This document shows positions 2,369 through 60,616 of a stretch of 64,000 nt of DNA, piece by piece. Both the position numbers and the translations under genes were made by a program. Source of the stretch: Oceanobacillus sojae (GTDB lineage Bacteria; Bacillota; Bacilli; Bacillales; Amphibacillaceae); contig NZ_LT727809.1 in the NCBI RefSeq assembly GCF_900162665.1, positions 245,539 to 309,538 of the forward strand, given 5' to 3'. Below the pieces are notes generated by a model. The model did not search any database. It was not told the origin of the DNA and worked only from the letters and a program-made list of their open reading frames with translations. Each line of letters starts with the position of its first letter. The first letter of the stretch is position 1.

Positions 2369-2798
2369 AACTTTTGCCCCTGAGAATAAGCATCTATACC
2401 TTCCTATTCCCAGGATGAATATGTTCTACATTATCCTGCTTGCATGTTGTTAAATCATCTTTCTATATGAAATGGAGATTGTGTATGGCTCCGCTCCGAC
2501 CAAGCACTCCGCTTTCCGACGTACAAATGTTTCCGGTGGGGCGAGTAATCGCAGTCCCAAGACGTACTAGTGCAGACGTTGCAACAACTCTTTTCGATGG
2601 GGTGAGTAATCGCAACCCCAGGACGTTGCGATCTTAGTCTGCCATGGGGACGGCTTCAGCTAATTTGAAAAGAAAACCGCTTTTCAAGCGGATCTTCAGC
2701 TCGCCCTGTTCCCATAGGAGTCTCCGTGGTTGGTCTGCGCTCAATTAGGTTACTACAGCGAATGAAAGGAGTCATAACCTGATGGAGTTGGGGGAAAT
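2369..2798 (+). repeat. Dispersed intergenic repeat, family A copy 1
   Basis: About 430 bp between pbpB and spoVD that recurs at 59759-60257 (same strand) and 45611-46024 (opposite strand). The core has outer arms GACCAAGCAC (2498-2507) and GTGGTTGGTC (2726-2735), and an inner hairpin TTGAAAAG/CTTTTCAA at 2665-2687 flanked by CTTCAGCTAA and GGATCTTCAG. An insert of roughly 125 bp splits the framework between GCTTTCC and CATGGGGACGG; copy 2 lacks it. No conserved ORF is present; the one open frame (2440-2637) crosses the repeat and is not retained in the other copies. Confidence 0.9.
2518..2629 (+). repeat. Two hairpin micro-insert units inside copy 1
   Basis: Unit 1 (2525-2560, 36 bp) is bracketed by GACGTAC at 2518-2524 and 2561-2567. 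Unit 2 (2583-2621, 39 bp) is bracketed by GACGTTGC at 2575-2582 and 2622-2629. Both units share GGGG-Y-GAGTAATCGCA-R-YCCC, a hairpin with a GTAA loop in which a C-G pair in unit 1 is a T-G pair in unit 2. The flanking direct repeats resemble target-site duplications. Confidence 0.75.
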
Positions 2799-2918
2799 TT
2801 AGAAGAGCAGCAGACTTGTTATAGAAATACACAACTGGCAACTATAAAAGATAGCTTGTTCTATTCCATTTTTTTCATTCATATAGTGGATACAAAGCAT
2901 GATGAAAGGAGTTCTTTC

Positions 2919-4853
2919 ATGAAACGCGCATCCACAATTATAATAAAAAAACGGATTGTCACTGTTTTTTTATTTGCGATTCTTATTTTTCTTGTCATTA
3001 TTGCGAGGCTGGCCTATGTCCAGCTCGTATTAAGTGATGATTTATCAGACAGTGCCAATGATTTATGGACAAGAGATATCACATTTGCCGCAGAAAGAGG
3101 ATATATTCTTGATTCTGAAGGAGAGATTCTTGCAGAGAATGTAACTGCTCCTACTGTCTTATTAATGCCTCGGCAAATAAAAGAACCTGAAGACACTGCT
3201 AAACTTTTGGGGGGAATTCTCGATGTGCCGACAGAAAGAATGATGGAATTAGTTACACAAAATGCTATGAGTGTGATGGTGAGGCCTGAGGGTATCAAAA
3301 TTAATAATGAGCAGGAGCAGGCAATCAGGGAATTAGATTTAGATGGTGTTTATTTGGCCAAGGATTCAAAGCGCCATTATCCAAATAACAGTGCTTTATC
3401 CCATGTGCTAGGCTTTACGGGGATAGATAACCAGGGATTAATGGGACTTGAATTATATTATGATGATAAATTAAAAGGAGAGAATGGAAGCTTATCGTTT
3501 TATTCAGACGCAAAAGGCGGAAGATTGGATCAGCTTGCGGATGAATATAAATCTCCAAAAGATGGTTTGAATTTAAAAACAACGATTAATAATAAAGTGA
3601 CAACAATTATGGAAAGAGAGCTGGACCAGGTTGTAGCGAAATATAATCCGGATGGAGCAATGGCGATTGCTGTTGACCCCAAAACAGGTGGAGTATTGGG
3701 GATGTCCAGCCGTCCAAATTTTGATCCAGAGAATTATCAGGATGTGGATGCTTCTATATTCGGGAGAAATCTGCCCATTTGGAGTACTTATGAACCTGGA
3801 TCTACCTTTAAAATTATTACATTGGCTGCTGCTTTAGAAGAAGGAGTCGTTGATTTAGAAAAAGACCGGTATTATGATGATGGCGATATTAAAGTTGGCG
3901 GAGCAACAATCCATTGCTGGAAGCGTGGCGGGCACGGGGATCAGTCATACCTTGAAGTTGTCCAAAATTCCTGTAACCCGGGATTTGTAAATTTAGGCCA
4001 AATGCTGGGAACAGAAAAGCTATTTTCATATATTGATGCCTTTGGGTTCGGTAAAAAGACAGGTATTGATCTGCAGGGAGAAGGAAATGGCATACTTTTC
4101 AAACCGGAAAATGTAGGACCAGTTGAATTAGCAACGACGTCCTTTGGACAAGGTGTTTCTGTAACACCGATACAACAGGTGATGGCTGTTGCTGCAACTG
4201 TAAATGGCGGTTATTTATACGAACCGATGATTGCCAAGGAATGGGTTGATCCTGTCACAGGAGAAGTTGTTGAATCCTATGAGCCTCATTTGAAGGGGCA
4301 AGTAATCTCCCAGGAAACATCTAAAACGATACGGGAAACATTAGAAACAGTAGTTGCACAGGGAACAGGAAGGCCTGCTTATGTTGATGGATATCGTGTT
4401 GGCGGTAAGACAGGTACGGCTCAAAAAGTAGGACCGAACGGCGGTTATTTAGAAAATAACTATATTGTATCCTTTATCGGTTTTGCACCTGCGGATGATC
4501 CGGAAATTGTTGTTTATCTGGCTGTTGATAACCCTAAAAATACGATTCAATTCGGTGGTGTTGTTGCTGCACCTGTTGTCGGAACAATTATTGATGATAG
4601 TCTGCGGGCGATGGGCGTAGAGAAGCGTATAGATGGATTAGAGAAAGAATATGCCTGGCCTGACCAGCCTAAAATAGAAGTACCGGATTTTATAGGAGAC
4701 AGTACGGATAAATTGGCGGAGTATCCTTTAGACCTGTCCATTGAAGTGAACGGCGAAGGAGAAGAAATTATTGACCAGTCACCGAAAGCAGGGACAATGC
4801 TAGAATCTGGAAGTACTATCCGGTTATTTTTAGGTCATGAAAATAATCGTTAA
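2919..4853 (+). CDS. spoVD: Stage V sporulation protein D, sporulation-specific PBP
   Basis: Class B penicillin-binding protein used for spore cortex synthesis. The frame is open from 2856, but ATG 2919 is chosen because GAAAGGAG lies 8 bases upstream; it gives 644 residues. A membrane anchor lies near residues 13-30, followed by the dimerisation domain and the transpeptidase motifs STFK (Ser295), SCN (351-353) and KTG (497-499). A single C-terminal PASTA domain distinguishes it from pbpB upstream, which has a longer tail. Position between pbpB and murE matches B. subtilis. In other bacilli the gene is read by the mother-cell sigma-E polymerase; I could not identify a convincing sigma-E promoter here. 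Confidence 0.93.
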   Translation: MKRASTIIIKKRIVTVFLFAILIFLVIIARLAYVQLVLSDDLSDSANDLWTRDITFAAERGYILDSEGEILAENVTAPTVLLMPRQIKEPEDTAKLLGGILDVPTERMMELVTQNAMSVMVRPEGIKINNEQEQAIRELDLDGVYLAKDSKRHYPNNSALSHVLGFTGIDNQGLMGLELYYDDKLKGENGSLSFYSDAKGGRLDQLADEYKSPKDGLNLKTTINNKVTTIMERELDQVVAKYNPDGAMAIAVDPKTGGVLGMSSRPNFDPENYQDVDASIFGRNLPIWSTYEPGSTFKIITLAAALEEGVVDLEKDRYYDDGDIKVGGATIHCWKRGGHGDQSYLEVVQNSCNPGFVNLGQMLGTEKLFSYIDAFGFGKKTGIDLQGEGNGILFKPENVGPVELATTSFGQGVSVTPIQQVMAVAATVNGGYLYEPMIAKEWVDPVTGEVVESYEPHLKGQVISQETSKTIRETLETVVAQGTGRPAYVDGYRVGGKTGTAQKVGPNGGYLENNYIVSFIGFAPADDPEIVVYLAVDNPKNTIQFGGVVAAPVVGTIIDDSLRAMGVEKRIDGLEKEYAWPDQPKIEVPDFIGDSTDKLAEYPLDLSIEVNGEGEEIIDQSPKAGTMLESGSTIRLFLGHENNR

Positions 4854-4866
4854 ATCCAAAAAAATT

Positions 4867-4875
4867 TGCTATAAT
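4867..4875 (+). promoter_or_regulatory. Extended -10 promoter upstream of murE
   Basis: TGCTATAAT is a perfect extended -10 element starting 14 bases after the spoVD stop codon. No good -35 is present 17 bases upstream, which is usual for extended -10 promoters. Transcription would begin near 4882 and read a leader of about 200 nt into murE. Confidence 0.6.
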
Positions 4876-4910
4876 AGATTCTGTTATCTTAATAATGTAA
4901 TGTGCTACAA

Positions 4911-5032
4911 AAGAGGGTTGGAGTTTTCGAAAGAGCTGTAATGCTTTATAAAAGGATCCATCGTTTCAAATCTGAGATTGTTTATACTTTTAGTTTAAAC
5001 AGAATTTCAATGGCAACCCTCTTAAACTAAAG
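4911..5032 (+). promoter_or_regulatory. murE leader with two competing long-range stems
   Basis: AAGAGGGTTG (4911-4920) is exactly complementary to CAACCCTCTT (5014-5023). TTTAGTTTAA (4989-4998) is exactly complementary to TTAAACTAAA (5023-5032). The second stem has its left arm inside the loop of the first and its right arm outside, so the two must form a pseudoknot or exclude one another. No T tract follows, so this does not look like a simple terminator. I recognise no known riboswitch class. Confidence 0.45.
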
Positions 5033-5081
5033 GATGCTTAAGAATACATTAAGAGGAAAAGAATAGAAATAGGGTGTAAAA

Positions 5082-6563
5082 ATGAAGCTTAAAGAACTAT
5101 TAGATGGAATAGGATTCTATCAGACAACAGAATCAATACAGGATATAGAAATTGTAAATGTAGAAATGGATTCCAGAAAAGTAGAATCCGGCAGTTTGTT
5201 TGTATGTATTGAAGGTTATACCGTAGATGGTCATGACTTTCTAAAGCAGGCAATAGACAATGGCGCTGCAGCAGCAGTTGTCTGTAAAGACGTGGATGTT
5301 GACGGGGGTATCCCGCTCATCCGCGTAAAGGATACAGGACGTGCATTGGCAATGCTCGCAGCAGCATACTATGATTACCCGACAGCAAAATTTCCGCTGA
5401 TTGGTGTTACGGGAACGAATGGGAAAACAACAACAACTTATTTATTAGATACTATTTTTGAAAAACAGGGTAAAAAATCTGGAATCATTGGCAGTATTCA
5501 AGTGAAAATTGGTGATGAAACATTCCCGGTAGCAAATACAACGCCTGATTCGTTAGAGTTAAATCGTATCTTTCATCAAATGCAGGAAAAGGAAGCAGAG
5601 CAAGTTATAATGGAAGTTTCTTCGCATGCCTTAGACATGGGAAGAGTTTTTGGCTGTGATTATGATATTGGTATTTTTACAAATCTGTCGCAGGATCATC
5701 TTGATTATCATAAAGATATGGATGATTATTTAAGAGCGAAGAGTCTTCTTTTTTCTGGATTGGGAAATGATTATCATCAAGGCAAGAAGAAATATGCTAT
5801 TATCAATGAGGACGATGACTCCAGTGATTTATTAAAACGCAGTACAGCCCAGCAGGTAATCACATATAGCTGTAAGCAGGATGCGGATGTTATGGCAAAA
5901 AATATTATCTTATCTCCTGCCGGTGTAGCTTTTAATCTTGTGACGCCAATAGGGACAACACATATTAAAACCCATTTAATCGGCATGTTCAATGTGTATA
6001 ATATGCTTGCTGCAAGCAGCGCTGCAATCGCATCTAATGTGGATTTAGAAGTGATTAAAGAGGCTTTGGAGGAGATTAAAGGAGTAGATGGGCGGTTTGA
6101 GCCAATTAATGAAGGACAGGATTTTTCTGTGATTGTTGATTTTGCGCATACTCCTGATTCCCTGGAAAATGTATTGCAGACCAGCCGGGAATTTGCGAAG
6201 CGTAAAGTTTATGTCGTGGTTGGCTGCGGAGGCGACCGGGACCGTACAAAACGTCCGTTAATGGCAGATGTTGCAGTGAAGTACGCAGATCATGCCCTAT
6301 TTACATCGGATAATCCGCGCACAGAGGATCCGGTACGAATTTTGGATGATATGACAAGTCATTTATCTGATAAAGAAGCAGTCTTTGAAGTGATTGTTGA
6401 CCGTACAGAGGCAATTAAGCATGCTGTAGAGCTTGCTCAAAAAGACGATATTATTCTGATAGCAGGTAAAGGACATGAAACTTACCAAATTGTCGGCACA
6501 ACAAAGTATGATTTTGATGATCGCCAAGTTGCCAGGATAGCAATTAAAGAGAAGGGGGAGTAG
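5082..6563 (+). CDS. murE: UDP-MurNAc-tripeptide synthetase (meso-DAP adding)
   Basis: Mur ligase adding the third stem-peptide amino acid to UDP-MurNAc-L-Ala-D-Glu in the cytoplasm, with ATP. The 493-residue protein has the usual three domains: UDP-binding N-terminus, central ATPase domain with the P-loop GVTGTNGKTTT (about 108-118), and C-terminal ligase domain. The motif DNPR at 410-413 is the known signature for meso-diaminopimelate rather than lysine, so the organism should make A1-gamma type peptidoglycan. Length is normal. It is followed after 3 bases by murF, so the two are likely co-transcribed. Confidence 0.96.
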   Translation: MKLKELLDGIGFYQTTESIQDIEIVNVEMDSRKVESGSLFVCIEGYTVDGHDFLKQAIDNGAAAAVVCKDVDVDGGIPLIRVKDTGRALAMLAAAYYDYPTAKFPLIGVTGTNGKTTTTYLLDTIFEKQGKKSGIIGSIQVKIGDETFPVANTTPDSLELNRIFHQMQEKEAEQVIMEVSSHALDMGRVFGCDYDIGIFTNLSQDHLDYHKDMDDYLRAKSLLFSGLGNDYHQGKKKYAIINEDDDSSDLLKRSTAQQVITYSCKQDADVMAKNIILSPAGVAFNLVTPIGTTHIKTHLIGMFNVYNMLAASSAAIASNVDLEVIKEALEEIKGVDGRFEPINEGQDFSVIVDFAHTPDSLENVLQTSREFAKRKVYVVVGCGGDRDRTKRPLMADVAVKYADHALFTSDNPRTEDPVRILDDMTSHLSDKEAVFEVIVDRTEAIKHAVELAQKDDIILIAGKGHETYQIVGTTKYDFDDRQVARIAIKEKGE

Positions 6564-6566
6564 GGC

Positions 6567-7922
6567 ATGTTGTTTACTGCATCACAATTAATGGAATTAT
6601 TCCCCCGGCATCAAGGGGATGTGCCAGCTGGTTTAGAAATTCATGAAGTGATTAAAGACAGTCGTGCTGATTCTCATAATGGACTTTATGTGCCTATTTC
6701 CGGAGAAAGGTTTGACGGGCATCAATTTATTGAGGGAGCAGTAGAGAATGGAGCAGTTGCAACCTTTTGGCAAAGGGAAACGCCGCTTCCTCCAAATCTT
6801 CCTTCCTCTCTTCTGGTTCTGTTTGTGGAGGATACGGTAAAGGCGCTGCAGGAGCTTGCGGCTGTTTACCGTAAGAAAATTAATCCAACTGTAATCGGCA
6901 TTACTGGATCAAATGGAAAAACAACTACAAAAGATCTGACAAAAGCTGTTTTGCAGACAACCTTTCAAACTCATGCAACAAAAGGAAATTTCAATAATCA
7001 TATTGGACTTCCATTAACGATTTTATCTATGGACCAGAAGACAGAAGTGCTGATTTTGGAAATGGGTATGAACCACTTTGGTGAAATAGAGCTTTTAAGT
7101 AATATAGGTGAGCCTGATATCGCAATAATTACAAATATTGACGGGCAGCATATTGAAAATTTGGGTTCCAAGGAGGGAATTGCCAAAGCAAAATTAGAAA
7201 TTGTTTCAGGAATAAAGCCTGAGGGTATGTTAATTATTGACGGGGATGAGCCTCTTTTAACAGATGCCGTGGTGCCAGTTCGTAAAACACGAGTAGGACT
7301 TGGCAAGGATAATGATGTCATTGTCAGCAATATAGCAGTTGAAGAAACGATAACTACTTTTGAGGTTGGCAAGGAATCCTATCAAATTCCACTCTTAGGA
7401 AGGCATCATGCGAAAAATGCAGCTTATGTTATTAAGCTGGCTTATGAACTGGGAATAGCATCTGAGGCAATTCAAAAAGCATTTGGGCAATTAGAGATGA
7501 CAAAAATGCGCTTTGAAAAGCATAAGGGGAAAAAAGGTATTACAGTAATTAATGATGCTTATAATGCTTCCCCCGCCTCTATGAAGGCATCCATTCAAGT
7601 AGTGGAAGAAATGAAAGGATATCACCATAAAATTCTTGTTCTTGGTGATATTTTAGAGCTTGGTGATTATGCGGAAGAATTTCATAGAGGGGTTGCAGAC
7701 GTGATTAATTCTGAGATTACAGCTGTTTATACGTATGGAAACAATTCCTATTACATACATGATGAGCTGAAAAAGAAGCTTCCTGAGCTGCCTGCTGTAC
7801 ATTTAGCAGACAAAGATGAACTTGCGGGTCATGTAGAAAAATATTTGCAGCCGGAAAACCTTATCTTGTTGAAGGCATCGAGAGGAATGAAATTTGAAAC
7901 ATTTTTAGAGCAATTATGTTAA
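6567..7922 (+). CDS. murF: UDP-MurNAc-pentapeptide synthetase
   Basis: Adds D-Ala-D-Ala to UDP-MurNAc-tripeptide, completing the cytoplasmic peptidoglycan precursor. The 451-residue product has the Mur ligase P-loop GITGSNGKTT at 111-120, the central-domain stretch EMGMNHFGEI and the C-terminal motif NDAYNASPAS typical of MurF. The start lies 3 bases after murE with GAGAAGGGGGAG upstream in the murE tail, so translation is probably coupled. MurF feeds its product to MraY, encoded next. Confidence 0.96.
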   Translation: MLFTASQLMELFPRHQGDVPAGLEIHEVIKDSRADSHNGLYVPISGERFDGHQFIEGAVENGAVATFWQRETPLPPNLPSSLLVLFVEDTVKALQELAAVYRKKINPTVIGITGSNGKTTTKDLTKAVLQTTFQTHATKGNFNNHIGLPLTILSMDQKTEVLILEMGMNHFGEIELLSNIGEPDIAIITNIDGQHIENLGSKEGIAKAKLEIVSGIKPEGMLIIDGDEPLLTDAVVPVRKTRVGLGKDNDVIVSNIAVEETITTFEVGKESYQIPLLGRHHAKNAAYVIKLAYELGIASEAIQKAFGQLEMTKMRFEKHKGKKGITVINDAYNASPASMKASIQVVEEMKGYHHKILVLGDILELGDYAEEFHRGVADVINSEITAVYTYGNNSYYIHDELKKKLPELPAVHLADKDELAGHVEKYLQPENLILLKASRGMKFETFLEQLC

Positions 7923-7960
7923 AGACATCTTATAGGTGTATTTAAAACAGTCAGGAAATG

Positions 7961-8032
7961 GAATCAGTGTGGTATATTGGGAGCTAAAGAACAAACCCAT
8001 GAGAATTGCACTGATTCTATCGTGTTTTTTTA
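7961..8032 (+). promoter_or_regulatory. mraY leader: inverted repeat followed by T tract
   Basis: GAATCAGTG (7961-7969) pairs exactly with CACTGATTC (8009-8017). Seven to eight bases later there is a run of T (about 8025-8032). The spacing is too long for a textbook terminator, but the arrangement in the 148 bp murF-mraY gap suggests a partial terminator or attenuator. Confidence 0.4.
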
Positions 8033-8070
8033 ACACATCTATAGAAGGTTACAAATGAGGTGGAGAGAAA

Positions 8071-9051
8071 ATGAATATTACAGGTTTATTAATTACAATC
8101 GCAGTAGCGTTTCTTATTACAGTTCTTCTATCTCCAATTTTTATCCCTTTTTTAAGACGATTAAAGTTTGGACAAAGTATTAGAGAAGAAGGCCCGGAAT
8201 CTCATCAAAAGAAATCAGGAACTCCGACAATGGGCGGAATTATGATAGTTTTCAGTATTGTCATTACATCCCTGATTATGGGAATGAGAACGGATAGTGG
8301 AATAGGCTATGAACTATGGTTATTACTTTTTGTATTATTTGGCTATGGTTTATTAGGATTTTTAGATGACTATATAAAAGTAGCAATGAAACGAAACTTA
8401 GGATTAACATCAAAACAGAAGCTATTTGGGCAAATTATTATTGCACTTATATTTTATTTTGTTTTACGCGGCCAAGATTTCTCAACAGAGATTGCAATTC
8501 CGGGAACATCCTTTCAATTTGATATTGGCTGGTTCTATGCAGTTCTTATTATTGTAATGCTCGTAGGGGCTTCCAATGCTGTTAACTTAACAGACGGATT
8601 AGATGGTTTATTGGCCGGTACAGCAGCGATTGCATTCGGTGCTTTTGCAATTATTGCATGGTATGGCATACCTAACGATATGGTAACCGTTTTTTCTTTA
8701 GCAGTGGTCGGTGCTTTACTGGGATTTTTAGTATTTAATGCGCATCCTGCCAAAGTGTTTATGGGAGATACAGGGTCATTGGCACTGGGAGGAGCTATTG
8801 CAGCAATTGCAATACTTTTAAAGCTGGAGATTTTATTAATTATTATTGGCGGCGTGTTTGTTATTGAAACATTATCCGTTATCATTCAGGTTATTTCCTT
8901 TAAAACAACTGGAAAGCGTATTTTCAAAATGAGTCCGTTACATCACCATTATGAATTAGTAGGATGGTCTGAGTGGAGAGTCGTTACAACGTTCTGGTTT
9001 GCCGGACTCCTATTTGCAATTCTTGCAATTTATATTGAGGTGGGTATGTAA
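8071..9051 (+). CDS. mraY: Phospho-MurNAc-pentapeptide transferase
   Basis: Integral membrane enzyme that transfers phospho-MurNAc-pentapeptide to undecaprenyl phosphate, forming lipid I. The 326-residue sequence is strongly hydrophobic with about ten membrane segments. Family hallmarks visible are FLDDYIKV with the paired aspartates, NLTDGLDGL, the loop around [11 protein letters not shown], and the HHHYE-like segment SPLHHHYEL near the end. The start has GAGGTGGAG upstream. Its TAA stop shares its last base with the ATG of murD, indicating translational coupling. Confidence 0.96.
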
Positions 9052-10400
9052 TGAAGACAATGAAACAATTTCCGGAAAAAGTGCTTGTTTTAGGATTAGC
9101 CCGAAGCGGTACTGCTGCTGCCAGGGTCCTTTTAGACAACAGGAAAGATGTAACAGTGAATGATAAGGCGGCCTCCTATGATGATGCTTTTGTTCAGGAG
9201 CTTCAGAAAAGAGGTGCACAGGTTGTTCTGGGTTCTCATCCTTTAAGTGTTTTAGAGGGAATAGAGATAGTTATCAAAAATCCCGGCATCCGGTATGACC
9301 ATCCGATTATTGCAGAAGCATTGAGGCAAAAGATCCCAGTAATTACAGAAGTGGAGCTTGTGTCTTACTTAACACAGCAGCCTGTCATAGGGATTACCGG
9401 TTCAAATGGAAAAACCACAACTACTACATTGATTACAGAGATGCTGAAATGTAGTGATTGCAATGTGAAGCTTGCCGGCAATATAGGAATTGCTGCTACG
9501 GAAGTGGCGCAAACGATGCAGGCAGGTGAAAGAATGGTTATTGAGCTGTCATCCTTTCAATTACAAGGAATATCAAAATTTCGTCCGACGACAGCGGTAC
9601 TGTTAAATATTTATGAAGCACATCTGGATTATCATGGAGATTTAGAAAGCTATGTGAATGCAAAATGTAATATATTTAAAAATCAGCAAGCAGATGATTA
9701 TCTTGTATATAATGCGGATGATTCTACTCTTAAGGAAAGAGTAATTCATACTGATGCAAAAAAAATTCCGTTTTCTGTAACGGCAAAGCTGGATCAGGAA
9801 GGCGCCTGGGCAGATGACACATATGTATACTTTTTTGATGAAGTAATTATACCGCTGGAAGATATCGTCCTGGTCGGGAAGCATAATTTAGAGAATATCC
9901 TGGCAGCAGTTGCTGCAGCAAAAATAAATGGAGCAACAAATGAAGGTATCCAGCATGTCTTAAAAACCTTTTCCGGTGTGAAGCATCGTTTAGAGTTTGT
10001 TGGAATGAAACAGGGCAGATACGTTTACAATGATTCGAAAGCAACAAATATATTAGCCACTCAAAAAGCACTGGATTCTTTTAAAAAAGGAATTGTGCTG
10101 CTTGCTGGCGGACTGGATCGCGGGAATGAATTTGATGCGCTTATTCCTCATTTGAAAAATGTAAAAGCAATGGTTGTATTTGGAGAGACTGCGTCAAAAT
10201 TAGAGCGTATAGGAAGAGAAGCAGGCGTCCAGGTGATAAAGTATGCAGAAGGTGTTGATGACGCTGCAAAGACCGGATTTACATTAACAGAGGCTGGAGA
10301 TATTCTGTTACTCTCTCCGGCATGTGCAAGCTGGGATCAATATAAAACATTTGAAGAAAGAGGAGACATATTTGTTCAGGCTGTTCATACAATAAATTAA
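9051..10400 (+). CDS. murD: UDP-MurNAc-L-alanine:D-glutamate ligase
   Basis: Adds D-glutamate to UDP-MurNAc-L-Ala in the cytoplasm. The 449-residue protein has an N-terminal Rossmann-like UDP-binding domain beginning VLVLGLARSG, the P-loop GITGSNGKTTT at about 114-124 and a C-terminal segment with LLLSPACASWDQY typical of MurD. It overlaps the mraY stop by one base. Catalytically it acts before MurE, so gene order does not follow pathway order, as is usual for dcw clusters. Confidence 0.95.
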   Translation: MKTMKQFPEKVLVLGLARSGTAAARVLLDNRKDVTVNDKAASYDDAFVQELQKRGAQVVLGSHPLSVLEGIEIVIKNPGIRYDHPIIAEALRQKIPVITEVELVSYLTQQPVIGITGSNGKTTTTTLITEMLKCSDCNVKLAGNIGIAATEVAQTMQAGERMVIELSSFQLQGISKFRPTTAVLLNIYEAHLDYHGDLESYVNAKCNIFKNQQADDYLVYNADDSTLKERVIHTDAKKIPFSVTAKLDQEGAWADDTYVYFFDEVIIPLEDIVLVGKHNLENILAAVAAAKINGATNEGIQHVLKTFSGVKHRLEFVGMKQGRYVYNDSKATNILATQKALDSFKKGIVLLAGGLDRGNEFDALIPHLKNVKAMVVFGETASKLERIGREAGVQVIKYAEGVDDAAKTGFTLTEAGDILLLSPACASWDQYKTFEERGDIFVQAVHTIN

Positions 10401-10487
10401 GGGGCTTGAACAATTAATGGATCAGGAATAATAATCGTAAACAAACTCGGACAAGCCGATCAGTAAATAATATATTTCAAATTGCCC
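10399..10487 (+). promoter_or_regulatory. Long-range inverted repeat in murD-spoVE gap
   Basis: AGGGGC at the murD stop codon can pair with GCCCCT about 80 bases later (10482-10487), and TCGG/CCGA forms a small inner hairpin. The arms are only 6 bases, so chance is possible. It is listed because murE and mraY have similar leaders. Confidence 0.22.
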
Positions 10488-10527
10488 CTATTTCCTAAGT
10501 TTAATTTCATGGAAAGAAGGGGTATTT

Positions 10528-11664: not shown

Positions 11665-11762
11665 ACTATTAGGAAATAAAAGCCTGCATTAAAATTTATC
11701 GATGATAGATCAGATATCATCAGGCGGTTTAGCGGATTACTGCAGGATGAGTAATCTTAAGC

Positions 11763-11786
11763 GGCGGAAAATAATATGTTTCCGCC
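11763..11786 (+). terminator. Possible terminator hairpin after spoVE
   Basis: GGCGGAAA (11763-11770) pairs with TTTCCGCC (11779-11786) around an 8-base loop. No T tract follows, so termination activity is uncertain. The hairpin lies about 100 bases after the spoVE stop. Confidence 0.35.
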
Positions 11787-12118
11787 GGCTCTGAACTCAT
11801 TTCCTCCATGCAAAACGTATGTCAGTTCATTATTGGCACAACGTTTTTTGCGCTTTCCCACAAGAGACTCCATGTTTTTCCTTCGTCAGCCAGTTGAATA
11901 ACCACATTTATACGTACATTTCAGCTACAGTTTTGAACAAATCGTTTTTTTGCTTAGAAAATGGGTGTGTGGATTATTATTTAAAGATAATCTGCTAAAG
12001 ATTTCACGTTACAACGCTGCAATTCTTGTTTTTTAGCAGGATCTGCTAGTGTTTTTCTAAAAAAAAGGAAAAAACTTTATAAACAATCGAAGTCATCTGC
12101 GTGTAGCACCTTAATTTG

Positions 12119-12127
12119 TGATATAAT
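12119..12127 (+). promoter_or_regulatory. Extended -10 promoter upstream of divIB
   Basis: TGATATAAT is a perfect extended -10 element about 70 bases before the divIB start. The -35 region is weak. It would provide separate transcription for divIB after the long gap. Confidence 0.55.
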
Positions 12128-23094: not shown

Positions 23095-23338
23095 TAGTAA
23101 TACAATGAAAGAGAAAGTATAGAAGAATATTCTGCATAAGCGAGTCAGGGACGGTGTAAGCCTGATACAGAAGTCTTTTAGAAAATCACTCTGGAGTAGC
23201 TGTTATGAATACATGTAGTAACAGCCGGCTGTCCACGTTACGGATTTCGAGTGAATTTAATGCCGGGCATTAAATTTATAAGGGTGGTACCGCGAGTCTT
23301 CTCGTCCCTTTAGGGATTAGAGGACTCTTTTTGTATAT
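23095..23338 (+). promoter_or_regulatory. T-box leader controlling ileS
   Basis: tRNA-sensing antitermination leader. The canonical T-box AGGGTGGTACCGCG is at 23281-23294. Stem III is visible as AATTTAATG/CATTAAATT just upstream. The terminator pairs GAGTCTTCT with AGAGGACTC and ends in T5; the alternative antiterminator pairs the GGG of the T-box with the TCCCTT after CTCG. Uncharged tRNA-Ile is expected to stabilise the antiterminator. I could not assign the specifier codon with confidence; the 5' boundary is approximate. Confidence 0.92.
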
Positions 23339-27783: not shown

Positions 27784-28464
<681 letters not shown>

Positions 28465-45607: not shown

Positions 45608-45610
45608 TAA

Positions 45611-46024
45611 TTCATGAAAGCTATTCCCGATATTTACTTTCCATACTGTGTGCTGTGTCATCGTTTCAATTACCACATTAACCATTTGAAACAATAAAAT
45701 GATTTTTTCACCAAGCAAAAAGCAATTATTTCATTCAACTCCATTAGGATATGATTTCTTTCATTCGCTGTAGAAGCCTAACTGAGCGCAGACCAACCAC
45801 GCAGACTCCTATGGGAACAGGGCGAGCTGAAGATCCACTTGAAAAGCGGGTTTCTTTTCAAGTTAGCTGAAGCCGTCCCCATGGAAAGCGAAGTGGTTGG
45901 TCGGAGCGGAGCTATACACAATCCTCCTTTCAATAAAAAGCTGATAAAATGCAAGCGGGATATTGAAGAACATGTTCATTCTGGAATAGGAAGGTATAGA
46001 TGCTTGCTCTTAGGTGCGAAAGTT
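45611..46024 (-). repeat. Dispersed intergenic repeat, family A copy 2
   Basis: Reverse-orientation copy, about 414 bp, of the element at 2369-2798 and 59759-60257. On the minus strand it begins AACTTTCGCACCT and ends GAATAGCTTTCATGAA. Outer arms GACCAACCAC (45791-45800) and GTGGTTGGTC (45893-45902) are perfect. The micro-insert of the other copies is missing, so GCTTTCC joins directly to ATGGGGACGG, giving the probable ancestral core. It occupies the place where B. subtilis has yloC. Confidence 0.9.
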
Positions 46025-46129
46025 AAATTGTTTAATTTAACCTATATAGAAAGAATTTCATAACATGGATAAACACGCAATACAATGCCCGAAGACATCA
46101 CTCTATTTTCCTATTTCTTGGTTTAGCCC

Positions 46130-46482: not shown

Positions 46483-47321
<839 letters not shown>

Positions 47322-47344
47322 AATTTAGGATATAAAACTGAAAC

Positions 47345-51275: not shown

Positions 51276-51292
51276 GGAAATGAGGGAAAATC

Positions 51293-52234: not shown

Positions 52235-52241
52235 TATAATT

Positions 52242-53588: not shown

Positions 53589-53797
53589 GCCATTTTTATC
53601 AAGTAGAATCGACCGTTAATCTCCTGCCTCAAGCGGATAGCGGATGTTTAAGCCCTTTTATAGTTAACGTATAGGAAAGAAGTTTAAATATATTATTCAA
53701 CTTGTACACTGCATAGTTTTATTATGCGGAAGATTGTGCAATAATTAAGGATAGAAGTATTTATTCAAAAAATAAGAAATTCGTAATAATGTTTTTG

Positions 53798-53826
53798 TTG
53801 AACAGTACTTAACGACAAAGTAATAA
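53798..53826 (+). promoter_or_regulatory. Candidate promoter for prpC-prkC
   Basis: TTGAAC (53798-53803) and TAATAA (53821-53826) are 17 bases apart. They lie about 50 bases before the prpC start, in the gap where rlmN is found in B. subtilis. The -10 is a modest match. Confidence 0.45.
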
Positions 53827-53875
53827 TAAATGTTTGAAAAGGATATATTTGGATTTGTAAAGGGGGGAGCAGCTC

Positions 53876-54637
53876 TTGAAAGGGCTTTTCTTGACACATT
53901 GCGGACAAGTTCGCAACCATAATGAAGATGCAGGCGGTATTTTTGAAAATAAAACCAGCCAGCCCATTGCGATTATTGCTGATGGCATGGGCGGCCATAA
54001 AGCCGGTGATGTAGCAAGCATGCTGGCTGTTGAAAATATGAAAAAAAGATGGGAAGAAACAGAGGTAGTTCAAAGTCCAAACGATATTGAACAATGGCTT
54101 CAAAGTATAATTAGAGAAACGAATGAGCAAATCTTCCGGAAGTCGCAGGAAAACAAACAGCTGGAAGGAATGGGGACAACACTTGTTGCTGCTGTTATAT
54201 CAGGTAATTCGCTTACCATTGCCCATATTGGGGACAGCCGTTTGTATATTGCGAGAGGAGAGCATGTTGAGCAGCTGACAGAAGATCATTCCTTTGTAAA
54301 TGAGCTTGTAAAAAGAGGAGAAATAACCGAGGGGGACGCGGAAGTTCACCCCTATAAAAATTATATTATCCGTGCGCTGGGAACAGAGGCACGTGTGGAT
54401 ACAGATATAAAAACACTGACCTGGGACGCAGGGGACAGATTATTACTATGCTCGGATGGTTTATCCGATAAGCTCAGCCAGACGGAATTAGCACAGTTTA
54501 TTACAGCAGATAAAGGGATGAATGAGATAGGTCAGGAACTTATTGATTTAGCGAACGAGCGCGGTGGAGAAGATAATATCTCGCTTATATTAATAGCACA
54601 TGACGGTTCAGACTCGGAGGCAGGTGAACCTGCATGA
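53876..54637 (+). CDS. prpC: Protein Ser/Thr phosphatase PrpC (PP2C family)
   Basis: PPM-type metal-dependent phosphatase that reverses PrkC phosphorylation. The 253-residue protein starts at TTG after AAGGGGGGAG. Metal-binding aspartates sit in RNHNEDAGG, DGMGGHKAGDVAS, GDSRLY and CSDGL, plus GGEDNIS. Its stop overlaps the prkC start by 4 bases, the normal kinase-phosphatase pairing in Firmicutes. Confidence 0.94.
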   Translation: MKGLFLTHCGQVRNHNEDAGGIFENKTSQPIAIIADGMGGHKAGDVASMLAVENMKKRWEETEVVQSPNDIEQWLQSIIRETNEQIFRKSQENKQLEGMGTTLVAAVISGNSLTIAHIGDSRLYIARGEHVEQLTEDHSFVNELVKRGEITEGDAEVHPYKNYIIRALGTEARVDTDIKTLTWDAGDRLLLCSDGLSDKLSQTELAQFITADKGMNEIGQELIDLANERGGEDNISLILIAHDGSDSEAGEPA

Positions 54638-56784
54638 ACAAGGGACACTTATTAAATGACCGTTATAAAATCGAAAGAAAAATCGGCGGCGGAGGCATGG
54701 CGAATGTCTTCCTTGCCAGAGATACTATTCTTGACCGTGATGTAGCAGTTAAAGCATTGCGGACGGATTATATTCATGATCAGGAGTTTATTGCCCGTTT
54801 TGACCGGGAGGCACAATCTGCAAGCTCCCTTTCCCACCCGAATATTGTAAATATCTATGATGTTGGCGAGGAAGATCAAACGCTGTATATGGTCATGGAA
54901 TATGTGGAAGGAATGACTTTAAAGGAATATATCCAACAATTTGGACCAGTAGAGGTTCCGCTTGCGCTGGATATTATGAAGCAGATTTCTTCTGCGATTG
55001 CACAAGCACATGAAAATGGTATTATTCATCGTGATATTAAGCCTCAGAATATCTTAATTGATCGTTTTGGTCAGGCGAAGGTAACGGACTTCGGAATTGC
55101 TATGGCTCTTAGTGCCACAGCATTAACACAAACAAATTCTATTTTGGGCTCTGTTCATTATTTGTCGCCAGAGCAGGCGCGGGGCGGCATGGCAACAAAA
55201 AAATCCGATATTTATTCATTGGGAATTGTACTATTTGAATTGTTAACAGGGAAGCTTCCTTTTTCCGGACAGTCCCCTGTATCCATTGCTTTAAAGCATT
55301 TACAAAGCGATACACCGTCTGTTAAAGAGATTAATCCGGATATTCCGCAAAGTGTAGAGAATATTGTGTTACAGGCAACAGCAAAAAATCCATTTTACCG
55401 CTATGCGGATGTCTATCAATTTGAAGCGGCCCTGGAGACAGCACTTTCTCCTGAAAAATTAAATGAAGAGCCGTTTAAGGTTCCGGATGAAGCGGGTGAT
55501 GAGACAAAAGCAATCCCGATTATTACGGATGATGACTTGACCTCAGATGATGAAGCGGGCCAGACTATTGTCCATCAGGCAGATACGGAGCCAACAAAAA
55601 GCTATCCTGATGAAAGCAATGGAAAGAAAAACAATAAGAAAAAGAAGGATAAAAAGAAGCCATCCAGTAAAAAGAAAAAAATAATCTGGATTTCAATTCT
55701 ATTATTATTGCTTATTGGTATCGGCACTGCAGCCGTTGTGTATGCTATGCAGCCGAAAGATGTTACGATAGATGATTTTACCAATCAGCCGGCTGATGAA
55801 GCAAAAGAGGCGCTGGAAAGCAAGAAACTGACTGTGGAAACAGAAGAGGTCAATTCGGATGAGATTGAATCAGGATATGTTGAAAGAACAGACCCTGTTG
55901 CCGGAAGAACGGTCAAGGAAGGATCGACCATAACCCTGTTTGTCAGCCAGGGGCCTGAACAAGTGGAATTTGATGATTACGTTGGAGAAGATTTTGAAGA
56001 AGTCAAAGAAGAGTTGGATCAAAAAGGATTTAATGTGGATGAGATTACACCGTTTGAAAGATATTCTGATCAACCGGTGGGTGAAATTATTTCTCAAGTT
56101 CAGCCCGATCCGGGGACATCTGTAGTGCCTGCTGATACAAAAGTGATTTTTGAAGTCAGTGCCGGACCGGAAATGGTGAGCCTGAATAATTTGACAGGAA
56201 TGAATGAAGAGGAAGTAAAGGCTTATTTAGATCGTAATGAACTAAGCATAAATCAGCATGAGGAGCATTCCGATAGTGTCGAGGAGGGACTGGTCAGCAG
56301 TCAATCTCCTGAATCCGGAACGGAGGTAGAAAAAGGATCGACAGTAGATGTTTATTTCTCTCTTGGACCGGAAGAGGAACCACCGCGGTCGCATTCTGTT
56401 TCTTTCACGGTTATGTACACGCTGGATGAAGAAAACTCTGAATCTGGAGAAGAATCATCTGGGGATGAAAATAATGAAGAAGATCAAAATGAGGAAACAA
56501 ACGAAGAAAATGCCGATGAAGGTAACGAAAACAATGAAAATACAGACGAAGGAAATGAAGAAAATACTGAAAACCAGGAGTCTGGAGAACAAATAGTCCG
56601 AATTTATATCGGTGATGCCAATAACGACATCTCAGATGTATATGAAGAACAAGCCATCACAGGAGATACGGAGGTACGTTTTACACTGACCATTGCTCAG
56701 GGAACTGATGCAGAGTATCGAATTACCAGAGATGATGAGACAGTTGCTGAGAGGACTGTATCCTATGAGGGAGAGGAAGAGTAG
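54634..56784 (+). CDS. prkC: PASTA-domain Ser/Thr kinase PrkC
   Basis: Membrane kinase that senses peptidoglycan fragments or lipid II and phosphorylates growth and germination targets. The 716-residue protein has the N-terminal kinase with the glycine loop IGGGGMANVF, Lys40, catalytic Asp134 in HRDIKPQN and Asp152 in DFG. A lysine-rich juxtamembrane stretch leads to one helix (about 350-372), then three PASTA repeats (about 373-580). A long E/N-rich segment (about 590-650) and a final beta-like domain follow; these are longer than usual. It is immediately followed by rsgA. Confidence 0.95.
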   Translation: MNKGHLLNDRYKIERKIGGGGMANVFLARDTILDRDVAVKALRTDYIHDQEFIARFDREAQSASSLSHPNIVNIYDVGEEDQTLYMVMEYVEGMTLKEYIQQFGPVEVPLALDIMKQISSAIAQAHENGIIHRDIKPQNILIDRFGQAKVTDFGIAMALSATALTQTNSILGSVHYLSPEQARGGMATKKSDIYSLGIVLFELLTGKLPFSGQSPVSIALKHLQSDTPSVKEINPDIPQSVENIVLQATAKNPFYRYADVYQFEAALETALSPEKLNEEPFKVPDEAGDETKAIPIITDDDLTSDDEAGQTIVHQADTEPTKSYPDESNGKKNNKKKKDKKKPSSKKKKIIWISILLLLLIGIGTAAVVYAMQPKDVTIDDFTNQPADEAKEALESKKLTVETEEVNSDEIESGYVERTDPVAGRTVKEGSTITLFVSQGPEQVEFDDYVGEDFEEVKEELDQKGFNVDEITPFERYSDQPVGEIISQVQPDPGTSVVPADTKVIFEVSAGPEMVSLNNLTGMNEEEVKAYLDRNELSINQHEEHSDSVEEGLVSSQSPESGTEVEKGSTVDVYFSLGPEEEPPRSHSVSFTVMYTLDEENSESGEESSGDENNEEDQNEETNEENADEGNENNENTDEGNEENTENQESGEQIVRIYIGDANNDISDVYEEQAITGDTEVRFTLTIAQGTDAEYRITRDDETVAERTVSYEGEEE

Positions 56785-57666
56785 ATGGCAGTAGGCAGAA
56801 TTATTAAAGCATTAAGCGGCTTCTACTACGTACAGTCAAATGAAGGAATTTATGCCTGCAAGGGGAGGGGTCTTTTTCGAAATAAAAAAATCTCCCCGTT
56901 AGTCGGTGATTATGTAGAATTTGAAATCCGTAACGAAGATGAAGGCTATATTATGAAAATAAAAGACAGGTCGAATGAACTGATTCGGCCTCCTATTGCT
57001 AATATTGATCAGGTATGTATTGTTAATGCAGCCACTTCACCGGATTTTAATGCGTTATTACTTGACCGATTTCTTGTCCTTGTAGAATCCAAGCATATTC
57101 AGCCTTTAATTTTTATTACAAAAATGGATTTAGCGACACCTCAGGAAGCAGCCAGAATTGAGGAATATCAAACAGCCTATCAGCATATTGGCTATGAAGT
57201 GAAACTATTATCTTCGAAAGAGCCGGAATGGATCTCTGAAGTAATACCTTATTTCAAAGATAAGGTTTCCGTATTTGCCGGCCAGTCCGGAGTAGGTAAG
57301 TCAACCCTGTTAAATACACTTGATCCTAATTTGTTTATAGAAACAGCGGAGATATCTAAAAGTCTCGGGAGGGGAAAGCATACAACAAGACACGTTGAGC
57401 TTTTGGCAATTGGCGAAGGCCTGGTAGCTGATACACCAGGGTTTAGCGCATTAGAGTTTTCTGATTTAGAGGCCGAGGATTTAGGTGTTTGTTTTCCGGA
57501 AATAAGGCTCCATATGTCAGATTGCAAGTTCAGAGGCTGTCTGCATGATAAAGAACCTAAATGTGCCGTAAAAACAGCTGTTGATGATGGTACTATAGCT
57601 GAATTCCGGTATAATCATTATTTACGATTTTTGGAAGAAATTAAAACAAGAAAGCCGAGGTATTAA
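56785..57666 (+). CDS. rsgA: Small ribosomal subunit maturation GTPase RsgA
   Basis: Circularly permuted GTPase (CpgA/YloQ) for late 30S assembly; in B. subtilis it is a PrkC substrate, which fits its adjacency. The 293-residue product has an OB-fold (1-65), a GTPase domain with the permuted order: G4 TKMD (about 112), then G1 GQSGVGKST (166-174), then G3 DTPG, and a C-terminal zinc finger with Cys/His in CKFRGCLHDKEPKC. The ATG directly follows the prkC stop. Confidence 0.95.
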   Translation: MAVGRIIKALSGFYYVQSNEGIYACKGRGLFRNKKISPLVGDYVEFEIRNEDEGYIMKIKDRSNELIRPPIANIDQVCIVNAATSPDFNALLLDRFLVLVESKHIQPLIFITKMDLATPQEAARIEEYQTAYQHIGYEVKLLSSKEPEWISEVIPYFKDKVSVFAGQSGVGKSTLLNTLDPNLFIETAEISKSLGRGKHTTRHVELLAIGEGLVADTPGFSALEFSDLEAEDLGVCFPEIRLHMSDCKFRGCLHDKEPKCAVKTAVDDGTIAEFRYNHYLRFLEEIKTRKPRY

Positions 57667-58322
57667 TGATGACAAAAATAGCACCCTCTATTTTATCAGC
57701 AGATTTTGCAAAGCTTGGAGAAGAGATTAAAGAGGTGGAGCAAGCCGGAGCTGATTACATCCATGTTGATGTGATGGATGGACATTTTGTTCCTAATATT
57801 ACAATCGGTCCTTTAATAGCAGATGCTATTAAGCCAATTACCAATGTGCCGTTGGATGTCCATTTAATGATAGAAAACCCGGATGCGTATATACCGCAAT
57901 TTGCTAAAAGTGCGTCTATTATTACCGTTCATCAGGAAGCATGTGTGCATCTGCACAGGACATTACAATTGATTCGTTCTCATGGCGTAAAACCGGGAGT
58001 AGTAATTAATCCGGGAACACCGGCAGAAATGATTAAACCCGTTTTAACAGAAGTGGATCTTGTATTATTAATGACAGTAAATCCTGGGTTTGGAGGACAA
58101 TCCTTTATTAAAGAGGTAGTTCCTAAAATTGTACAAATTGCAGCATGGCGTGAAGAAATGGGCTTACATTTCGAAATCGAAATTGACGGAGGAGTTAATG
58201 AGGTAACAGCTCCGATCTGTACTGAAAATGGTGCAGATGTATTAGTCGCTGGAAGTGCTGTTTTTAACCAGAGTAATCGAAAAGAAGCTATTGACCTGAT
58301 TCGCAAGAGTGCAGAGAAATAA
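57666..58322 (+). CDS. rpe: Ribulose-phosphate 3-epimerase
   Basis: Interconverts ribulose 5-phosphate and xylulose 5-phosphate in the pentose phosphate pathway. The 218-residue TIM barrel has APSILSADFA, HVDVMDGHFVPNIT with metal-binding His and Asp, VHLMIENP, and the phosphate-binding NPGFGGQSFI with DGGVN. Its start overlaps the rsgA stop by one base, and its stop shares one base with thiN. Confidence 0.96.
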   Translation: MMTKIAPSILSADFAKLGEEIKEVEQAGADYIHVDVMDGHFVPNITIGPLIADAIKPITNVPLDVHLMIENPDAYIPQFAKSASIITVHQEACVHLHRTLQLIRSHGVKPGVVINPGTPAEMIKPVLTEVDLVLLMTVNPGFGGQSFIKEVVPKIVQIAAWREEMGLHFEIEIDGGVNEVTAPICTENGADVLVAGSAVFNQSNRKEAIDLIRKSAEK

Positions 58323-58969
58323 TGAAACGTGTTGGTATTGTGGGAAATGGTCCTAAAGAGCAATTACCCAATCTTTTAGACTATCAGGAGGAGATGGACT
58401 TTTGGATTGGTGCTGATCGGGGAGCGCTTTATTTAGCAGAACAAGGAATAACGATTGATGTCGCACTGGGAGATTTTGATTCTGTCTCTGAAAATGAGTA
58501 TGCTATAATCGAAAAGCATGCTAAGTTATTTGATAAACACCCAGTGATGAAGAACCAGACAGATTTAGAGATTGCTATTGATATGGGGTTAGAAAAAGAA
58601 GCGGATCATTTTTTTCTTTTTGGTGTAACTGGAGGCAGACTAGACCATACATTGATGAATATCCAATTGCTATATCCATTATTACAGCAGGGAAAACGTG
58701 CTGTTATTATTGATAAAGGGAATTATATGGAAATATTTGAACCAGGTACATATTCCGTTGAACTGGATGGATATTTCTATATTTCTTTTTTAGCATTTAC
58801 TCCTGAGATTGCCGGATTAACATTGACAGGTTTTTTATATCCGTTAGAGAATCAAACGATACATTGGGGATCTTCTTTATGTATATCTAACGAGCTTAGT
58901 CAAAAAAAAGGTACTTTTTCTTTCTGTAAAGGCATACTAATACTAGTAAAGAGTTTTGATGCAGTTTAA
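58322..58969 (+). CDS. thiN: Thiamine pyrophosphokinase
   Basis: Makes thiamine pyrophosphate from thiamine and ATP. The 215-residue protein has an N-terminal catalytic domain with IGADRGALYL, LGDFDSV, KNQTDLE, and GVTGGRLDHTL, followed by a smaller beta domain. It begins at the last base of the rpe stop codon and closes a run of overlapping genes from prpC onwards. spoVM lies 42 bases downstream. Confidence 0.93.
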   Translation: MKRVGIVGNGPKEQLPNLLDYQEEMDFWIGADRGALYLAEQGITIDVALGDFDSVSENEYAIIEKHAKLFDKHPVMKNQTDLEIAIDMGLEKEADHFFLFGVTGGRLDHTLMNIQLLYPLLQQGKRAVIIDKGNYMEIFEPGTYSVELDGYFYISFLAFTPEIAGLTLTGFLYPLENQTIHWGSSLCISNELSQKKGTFSFCKGILILVKSFDAV

Positions 58970-59011
58970 CTAGAAGCAAACAGGATGGTTAAACAGGGAG
59001 GGCCTTTATAA

Positions 59012-59095
59012 ATGAAATTCTATACGATTAAGCTTCCTAAGTTTGTAGGCGGGTTTGTTAAAGTCATCATTGGTGTATTCAAAAAAGAAAAGTAA
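59012..59095 (+). CDS. spoVM: Stage V sporulation protein M (27 codons)
   Basis: Tiny amphipathic-helix protein that recognises the convex forespore membrane and anchors the coat scaffold SpoIVA. The ORF codes for 27 residues starting MKFYTIKLPKFVGGFVK and ending KKEK, one residue longer than the 26-residue B. subtilis protein. Pro9, essential for the helix shape in that species, is conserved. GGGAGGG lies 8 bases upstream and a terminator follows 6 bases after the stop. Order thiN-spoVM-rpmB matches B. subtilis. Confidence 0.95.
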   Translation: MKFYTIKLPKFVGGFVKVIIGVFKKEK

Positions 59096-59100
59096 TAGTA

Positions 59101-59139
59101 AACGAGCTTTTGTCACAGATGGCAAAAGCTCGTTTTTTA
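59101..59139 (+). terminator. Terminator after spoVM
   Basis: AACGAGCTTTTG (59101-59112) pairs with CAAAAGCTCGTT (59123-59134), then T tract. Confidence 0.92.
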
Positions 59140-59342
59140 GGATACTTGAACCATTTATAAATGTAATAAGAACGAGTTATAAGCTAGTACTTGCCTGTAT
59201 TATTTTCTGTCAATACGCGGTTTGATTCATTCGTGTGAATCTGGCTCATCATACTGCGTAAATGGATTAAGGGCACATATCAGGTCAAAGAGAAATTCTT
59301 TAGTTTAAACTTATATAAATTGAGATAAACCTTTCTATACAG

Positions 59343-59374
59343 CAAAAAAACACCATGTAATTATGGTGTTTTTA
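59343..59374 (-). terminator. Terminator of rpmB (minus strand)
   Basis: AAAACACCAT pairs with ATGGTGTTTT around a short loop, with A-rich and T-rich ends. It lies about 26 bases beyond the rpmB stop on the minus strand and may act in both directions. Confidence 0.8.
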
Positions 59375-59399
59375 GGGCATATGCACATATTTTCGTATA

Positions 59400-59588
59400 T
59401 TATACACGTTCTACTTTGCCTGATTTTAATGCACGAGCAGATACATATACTTTCTTCGGTTTTCCATCTACCATGATACGTACTTTTTGTACATTTGCTT
59501 TCCAATTACGCTTGTTGGAATTCATAGCGTGAGAACGTTGGTTACCACTACGTGTTTGGCGTCCAGTTACAACACATTTTCTAGCCAT
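59400..59588 (-). CDS. rpmB: 50S ribosomal protein L28
   Basis: Ribosomal large subunit protein L28 of 62 residues, beginning [10 protein letters not shown] with the family motif [29 protein letters not shown] precedes the start on the minus strand. Only one cysteine (Cys5) is evident, so this is the zinc-free type. Minus orientation between spoVM and yloU is the same as in B. subtilis. Confidence 0.97.
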
Positions 59589-59758
59589 GTTATTCCCTCC
59601 TTACATTCCAAAATCAGTATACCACTAACTTAATTTATCATAACTCACCCGATATTGCAATTGAATCTTTTTATTATCACGAGAGAAGCTAAAACAAATA
59701 GATTTCAAATCATTATATTTTACTCTTTTGAAATGCTGTTTTGTTAAATAAGTAACTC

Positions 59759-60257
59759 AACTTTCGTATCTGAGAATAGACATCTATACCTTACCTTACA
59801 AGGATAAGCATGTTCTTCATTATCCTGCTTGCATTTTGTCACCTTTTTATTGAAATGGAGATTGTGTATAGATCCGCTCCGACCAACCACTACGCTTTCC
59901 GACGTACAGGACGTACTAGTGCAGACGTTGCAACAACTCTTTTCGATGGGGTGAGTAATCGCAACCCCAGGACGTTGCGATCTTAGTCTGCCATGGGGAC
60001 GGCTTCAGCTAACTTGAAAAGAAAACCGCTTTTCAAGTGGATCTTCAGCTCGCCCTGTTCCCATAGGAGTCTACGTGGTTGGTCTGCGCTTAGTTAGGCT
60101 TCTACAGCGCATGAAAGAAATCATATCCTGGATGGAGTTGGATGAAATAATTGCTTTTTGCTTGTTGAAAAGATTATTTTAGTGTTTTAAATGGTTGATT
60201 TGCAATTTAAATAATAATACGGCATGAATAGTAAATATCGGGAATAGCTTTCATGAA
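59759..60257 (+). repeat. Dispersed intergenic repeat, family A copy 3
   Basis: About 499 bp in the same orientation as copy 1. Outer arms GACCAACCAC (59881-59890) and GTGGTTGGTC (60075-60084) are perfect. The inner hairpin CTTGAAAAG/CTTTTCAAG is at 60013-60037 between CTTCAGCTAA and GGATCTTCAG. A shorter insert (59901-59991) carries one micro-unit bracketed by GACGTTGC at 59924-59931 and 59971-59978; the other site shows only GACGTAC-AG-GACGTAC (59901-59916). Confidence 0.9.
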
Positions 60258-60616
60258 TAGAAAGTAATCGTGACCGGACATTTTTATTTATGCCCCGAAA
60301 AATATGTTTTTAACTGGTCTAATTTCTATTGGCTCCGTTGTACTAAACAGTATAGAGCCCCCTTCCAGCGGAGGCGGACCGTTTTGCTTTCCTAGGGGCA
60401 TGCTCTTCAGCTAACTTTTGCCAAGAAGACCACTTGGCAAAAGTGGATCTTCAGATGATGCTATTCCCTCAGGAGTCAAAACGGTCCGCCGCAGCGGTGG
60501 CCTTACACGTTACCTGCTTTCTAGATAAAGTTTATGCTTTGTCAAGAGATAGATGGAAGGACTGATCAACACCTGTCTCTATGGTAAGCAAGTTATTTTT
60601 TAAGGTGCGAAAGTTG
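60250..60616. repeat. Related diverged repeat, family B
   Basis: About 367 bp adjoining copy 3. It has perfect 14-bp outer arms GGCGGACCGTTTTG (60373-60386) and CAAAACGGTCCGCC (60477-60490), and an 11-bp inner hairpin CTTTTGCCAAG (60415-60425) with CTTGGCAAAAG (60433-60443). It shares GCTTTCC, GGGG, CTTCAGCTAACTT, AAGTGGATCTTCAG and AGGAGTC with family A, though the stem sequences differ completely. Its right end, GGTGCGAAAGTTGAGTAA, is an inverted copy of the family A left end. Confidence 0.8.

Follow-up and report, generated by a model that had tools for sequence, protein, structure and literature searches.

The 64,000-nucleotide stretch of the Oceanobacillus sojae genome assembly analysed here (the window; contig NZ_LT727809.1, positions 245,539 to 309,538) holds four copies of a long hairpin, three of a family A and one of a family B. 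Both families belong to a hairpin superfamily of ~125-140 nt that extends across the order Bacillales. We consider it probable that A and B are two members of this order-wide family, with constant internal parts and freely varying stems, that they form the arms of a miniature inverted-repeat transposable element (MITE), and that the hairpin acts as RNA. Comparison of the copies shows the structure and the mobility at sequence level, and favours a role at the RNA level.

The framework shared by A and B, GACTCCTnnGGGA..CCnnnGGAAAGC, is the reverse strand of the anchors listed in an earlier note on this DNA, and reads GACTCCT-nn-GGGA ... CC-nnn-GGAAAGC. Within the window CTTCAGCTAA and GGATCTTCAG co-occur at 2654-2699 (+), 45827-45872 (-), 60003-60048 (+) and 60405-60454 (+), which bears out the note's count of four repeats on one framework. 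These two blocks represent a sub-type; most of the 48 diverse sequences aligned below carry GAGACCCC/GAGGAGGCTC there. The note took its anchors to be single-stranded; this is correct for the unpaired constant parts within GACT/AAAGC and for a bulged T, but the GGGG and CC/GG parts lie in a conserved helix. It also had the stems pairing perfectly within each copy. In B the outer arms (GGCGGACCGTTTTG/CAAAACGGTCCGCC) and the inner stems (CTTGAAAAG/CTTTTCAAG and CTTTTGCCAAG/CTTGGCAAAAG) do pair, but copy 1 of A has one mismatch in its outer arm GACCAAGCAC and one T-G pair in its inner stem. GCTTTCC and ATGGGG are parted by an insert in two of the three A copies (2518-2643, comprising two units, and 59901-59992).

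A joint pattern of the anchors has 66 exact matches in the 4.80-Mb genome, 30 of A and 36 of B (window and loci L039-L078), and none for a reversed control. Across the order, 196 of 299 genomes have the framework, representing 83 of 116 genera (reversed control 0), with up to 211 copies in a single genome; in a class-wide draw it is found in 80 of 398 genomes and 29 of 145 genera, some families lying outside the order. A scan of contigs gave at least 118 stretches, and among the 80 matches listed nearly all are Bacillales by name, including Halobacillus, Oceanobacillus, Peribacillus, Sporosarcina, Planococcus and others, with one Pisciglobus. Rossellomorea marisflavi carries 91 copies and Neobacillus sp. 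DY30 carries 13. The earlier note had named differing anchors elsewhere as the outcome that would tell against it; the result was mostly the reverse, GACTCC and GGAAAGC recurring order-wide, though the search pattern demanded both sets of letters.

Selection on the fold was assessed by covariation. The 335 hairpins collected reduce to 185 distinct ones. With one sequence per locus, 149 were eligible; a random draw took 58 from loci L079 onward, and dropping 10 of them for brevity left the 48 sequences of alignment A1, one of which (L094) comes from this genome and is neither A nor B. Paired stem cells make up 87.4% of A1 over 32 pairs, compared with 68.5% in shuffled and 36-46% in slid alignments, the structure having an advantage over the slid controls because it was drawn by hand from A1 itself. 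Five of the 32 pairs never vary, their letters being fixed by the extraction pattern. Covariation is 0.457 against 0.150 in shuffles and double changes number 304 against 109, values attained by none of 500 shuffles. Across all 185 hairpins, 7.12 of nine outer-arm positions pair, as against 4.65 in re-dealt arms (standard deviation 0.076; top of 200 deals 4.88). At the two variable positions of CCTnnGGG/CCnnnGG, 174 and 180 of the 185 hairpins have a Watson-Crick pair, the first as G-C (156), A-T (16) or T-A (2), the second as C-G (137), T-A (36), A-T (4) or G-C (3). RNAalifold, given a loose MAFFT alignment of 180, returned a partial structure only. The earlier note's central proposal, a constant framework with covarying stems, is thus upheld on diverse sequences against two controls, which argues for selection on the folded form. 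A covariance-model search has also been run: model R1, built from the 48 A1 sequences, none of them A or B, recovers all four window copies (58.2, 33.5, 19.7 and 18.6 bits) and 84 places in the genome.

The internal parts are constant beyond what the pattern imposes. Outside the demanded letters, the GAGAC/CC and GAGG/GGCT positions are at least 90% conserved in A1. In R. marisflavi 120 stretches were located by their outer ends alone, of which 81 fit the pattern; among these GAGACCC is exact in 75 and GAGGCTC in 76, compared with 29 for the outer loop GGAGCGGAAG. GACTCC is exact in 26 and GGAAAGC in 25 of the remaining 39, which lack the pattern and include some second starts within one element and several chance matches. 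The framework is strongly kept, not absolute, and its constancy outside the demanded letters argues against mere correction of palindromes, an explanation taken up below.

The elements carrying the copies have CTCAACTTTCGCACCT, or a close variant of it, as inverted repeats at their ends. Twenty-two such elements were cut and two with N in a flank set aside; 12 of the 20 scored have an exact 7-bp target duplication, compared with 17 of 380 cross-pairs (L049b and L065, both among the 20, share flanks and may be one event). Inverted repeats and duplications together uphold the mobile carrier suggested in the earlier note. Five copies of an insertion sequence (IS), 1530 bp long, start and end with CTCAACTTTCGCA, the first 13 bases of the MITE inverted repeats. 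The copy at L039 encodes a 467-amino-acid protein that matches NCBIfam NF049925 (IS4; 610 bits, cut-off 250) and the DDE domains of Pfam. TTAATAA flanks the copy at L040 on both sides, and the other four lack an exact 7-bp duplication. Three features by which a MITE is recognized are present, namely inverted repeats in common with an autonomous IS, duplications of constant length and an IS4-family transposase in that IS. This IS4-family IS is most likely the mover of the MITE in this genome. IS4 transposase homologues in nine other hairpin-bearing genomes were found as fragments only, in two of the nine.

Twenty of the elements read have both modules, and in 19 of these A and B face each other; the exception is the 60-kb element of the window, where B is flipped and points in the same direction as A. 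The genome has a second repeated scaffold with two other hairpin families, inward-facing in the three pairs read. As the hairpin is present on different scaffolds, it is not tied to one transposase. Hairpins at L082, L096 and L097 lie near ends like GAGGCTGGGACAAA, which we take to be IS1272-like, and this is possibly a further scaffold for the same hairpin.

Single hairpins were delimited in R. marisflavi. Boundaries were found for 57 of 70, giving an element with a mean of 132 bp (126-149) and ends GAGTTGC..GCAACGG, whose apical part varies between copies. Direct repeats of at least 6 bp surround 16% of these hairpins against 8% when shuffled. Over the 57 elements 15 exact 5-mer matches (one element may count repeatedly) fall at offsets summing to 11, compared with at most 2 at any other printed offset, which is suggestive of flanking direct repeats of ~7 bp. 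No inverted pair at IS spacing, as expected of an autonomous partner, was seen by eye among ~100 listed of 142 left-end matches. In a search for empty sites, relatives of R. marisflavi proved to be ~68-79% identical over the matched genes. At L299 (18926-19277) three R. marisflavi hairpins stand in tandem, ~175 bp apart, and several copies (L281, L282, L300, L307) have GACTCCA instead of GACTCCT, which changes the bulged base.

Two strand asymmetries bear on the molecule that is selected. On the GACTCC strand of A1, G-U combinations outnumber A-C by 61 to 31 (p 0.0023; re-dealt 114 and 108), and with a wobble-blind aligner the distinct events are 74 G-U and 50 A-C (one-sided p 0.019). The other is orientation among genes, taken from three samples of hairpins with assignable neighbours, of which 69/70, 72/73 and 51/52 lie outside open reading frames (ORFs) of at least 150 amino acids; when ORFs of at least 90 amino acids are counted, seven of the 70 R. 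marisflavi hairpins lie inside one. Hairpins at locus edges were dropped (0, 16 and 4), and orientation was counted only for hairpins lacking a partner within 700 bp, which removed 7, 16 and 10. Single hairpins between tandem genes are aligned with transcription in 34/41 (p 2.5e-5), 19/29 (p 0.14) and 18/26 (p 0.076), or 71 of 96 pooled. In convergent or divergent contexts orientation agrees with GC skew in 14/21, 15/27 and 9/15 (38/63), and over R. marisflavi in 42/63. Transcription rather than replication is the likelier cause of the orientation bias. The excess of G-U over A-C and the alignment with tandem genes together favour an RNA-level role, and selection probably acts on the hairpin in its folded form, most likely as RNA.

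Several points weigh against this reading. The G-U excess in the wobble-blind set is modest, and the A1 column pairs had earlier been screened with G-U counted as a pair. Raw core cells lean the other way, to A-C (284, against 209 G-U), to which fixed mismatches may contribute; the distinct core events, by contrast, are 46 G-U and 36 A-C. Two of the three tandem-gene samples are non-significant when taken alone, genes were called by a crude ORF rule, and a weak replication bias may be part of the cause. Since the extraction pattern required GACTCCT, GGGA and GGAAAGC, their invariance within A1 is built in, and among copies that the pattern misses some show GACTCCA or insertions in the inner part.

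A and B each form one subterminal arm of the non-autonomous transposon. In the mechanism that we propose, read-through from an adjacent gene would yield the hairpin as RNA, the form in which it would act. A putative host factor, either an RNA-binding protein or a double-strand ribonuclease such as RNase III, would bind or cut the constant parts, and the element would thereby protect transcripts next to it or be tolerated itself. With inward-facing pairs, as in most copies read, a transcript that comes in from either side would exit through one hairpin in the sense (GACTCC) orientation. More speculatively, the module may be a cassette that unrelated small transposons carry throughout Bacillales and that encodes a conserved RNA motif, whose constant parts a host RNA-binding factor or nuclease reads. 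The inward pairs would then insulate transcripts in both directions, rendering insertions harmless and letting carriers reach dozens to ~200 copies per genome; this extension we hold only tentatively. If it acts as RNA, the hairpin is one of the more common structured elements in Bacillales transcripts, sited between the genes of many operons; if it acts as DNA, it is a cassette common to unrelated transposons. Covariation at such depth makes the choice testable.

The most serious alternative is that the hairpin works as DNA, as a single strand or cruciform forming the recognition or target site of a transposase, in the manner of REP/RAYT systems or of the stem-loop-replacing IS1272. We regard this as possible, and clearly less likely than action as RNA. 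REP and REPIN sequences with their RAYT are palindromic, intergenic and arranged in inverted doublets, which the inward-facing pairs resemble; the single hairpins of R. marisflavi are sharp-ended at ~130 bp, and the flipped B module in the window also fits. The present module, however, is much longer than a REP, has constant internal parts and target duplications, and is absent from the Y1 transposase loci of the one genome examined. That genome has five Y1 matches (two near full length, one of these with a stop, and three partial; L109-L113), none with a hairpin by model R1, and a link to Y1 transposases was rejected. Nor does R1 detect a hairpin in any of the five IS copies that share the MITE end sequence, and the same hairpins ride on different scaffolds, so the hairpin-recognising transposase suggested in the earlier note is not supported. 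Hairpin orientation follows transcription more than GC skew. Insertion of the IS1272 type removes a stem-loop and makes no duplication, according to PMC5678879; the elements here have 7-bp duplications (12 of 20) and no sign of a replaced stem-loop.

A second alternative invokes no selection: template switching at replication (quasipalindrome correction) would maintain the perfect palindromes, and the copies would spread as passengers. Stems that are almost wholly Watson-Crick are what such correction would yield. Yet the mismatched internal parts have stayed uncorrected and resemble each other from genus to genus, even at letters that the pattern left free, and both the G-U/A-C asymmetry and the strand bias relative to transcription count against it; we judge it improbable. 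Least probable of all is a bidirectional intrinsic terminator, a role on the earlier note's list. In its favour are the intergenic placement, the stable folds (mean -56.5 kcal/mol for the GACTCC strand and -53.5 for its complement) and terminator-like sites inside hairpins of the window (60446 and 2691, minus strand). A GC stem with a T-run is nevertheless rare among the 185 distinct hairpins, occurring in 1 when the GACTCC strand is scanned and in 10 when the opposite strand is (0 or 1 in shuffles), and the 3' flank in R. marisflavi is A-rich; the terminator reading was rejected.

The order-wide framework was absent from the open-access literature searched, and no Rfam family at its gathering score names the A/B hairpin module in the window. 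The closest likeness is to tsr24 (RF02577), a small RNA of Staphylococcus aureus, with the block order GACUCC..GGGA..CAG..GAAGACC..GGAAAGC on the same strand, a further point in favour of the RNA reading; five of the six loci given match it at 23.6-33.9 bits (E 1.7e-4 to 0.084). The best match, 33.9 bits, is below the gathering score of 50, and the 238-nt model is named for one species and differs in its stems. Going by the Rfam naming, tsr24 was presumably found as a transcript. The bcr1 MITEs of the Bacillus cereus group, treated in PMC3733652, are likewise non-coding, intergenic, structured and present in many copies; compared by description only, the module here differs in spanning genera and scaffolds. 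PMC2267715 lists, species by species, intergenic stem-loop repeats (74-136 bp) from B. halodurans and S. aureus, namely Bhal-1 (74 bp, 36 copies), Sta-1, Sta-3 and Sta-4. Judged by these descriptions alone, some of the Bhal-1 and Sta families may be members of the hairpin superfamily.

Rfam Bacillaceae-1 (RF01690) matches the insert inside A, in the 60-kb copy and at L058. It is a separate structure nested in A and not the A/B hairpin, over which it has no match at or above its gathering score of 35. Loops or stems of A hairpins (both window inserts; L336, L341, L344) contain an inserted small repeat whose hairpin is of the GGGGTGAGTAATCGCAACCCC type and which lies in or close to a Bacillaceae-1 match; variants of this repeat are found in other hairpin families as well. 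Coordinates of the window features are collected in Table 1.

Table 1. Hairpins, carrier elements and associated features in the window
Feature	Coordinates	Strand	Evidence
Complete MITE, 863 bp: inverted repeat - hairpin A - spacer - hairpin B - inverted repeat	59756..60618	+	inverted repeats, homology to other copies
Left target-site duplication TAAGTAA	59749..59755	.	
Right target-site duplication TAAGTAA	60619..60625	.	
Left terminal inverted repeat CTCAACTTTCGTATCT	59756..59771	+	
Right terminal inverted repeat CTCAACTTTCGCACCT	60603..60618	-	
Hairpin B, GACTCC strand = minus; inverted relative to other copies read	60364..60499	-	model R1, 33.5 bits, E 1e-7
Hairpin A copy 3, split by insert; model match extends into insert	59965..60094	-	model R1, 19.7 bits, E 0.0017
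Insert inside hairpin A copy 3; Rfam Bacillaceae-1 match 59903-60002 (minus)	59901..59992	.	
Hairpin A copy 2, uninterrupted	45782..45911	+	model R1, 58.2 bits, E 3.3e-15
Partial element around A copy 2; single inverted repeat 46012-46027, B half missing	45610..46027	-	
Hairpin A copy 1, interrupted by two insert units; model match extends into insert	2619..2744	-	model R1, 18.6 bits, E 0.0035
Partial element around A copy 1; left end degenerate, B half missing	2364..2798	+	

One hairpin query matched 15 plasmid records, and a single query had no match in 50,697 phage records. In two of the plasmid records (L328 and L329, 2974-3100) a hairpin lies between gnd and the next gene of a zwf-gnd-isomerase run; this run with its hairpin is found on plasmids of Priestia, Paenibacillus and Bacillus subtilis, and at L329 a recombinase gene and a Tn3-family transposase gene stand beside it. 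The Priestia flexa counterpart of the operon is without the hairpin (169 against 346 bp), the comparison giving no exact junction. Elsewhere in the window a T-box leader and a PyrR binding site, at 23096-23312 and 27793-27897, score above the Rfam gathering thresholds.

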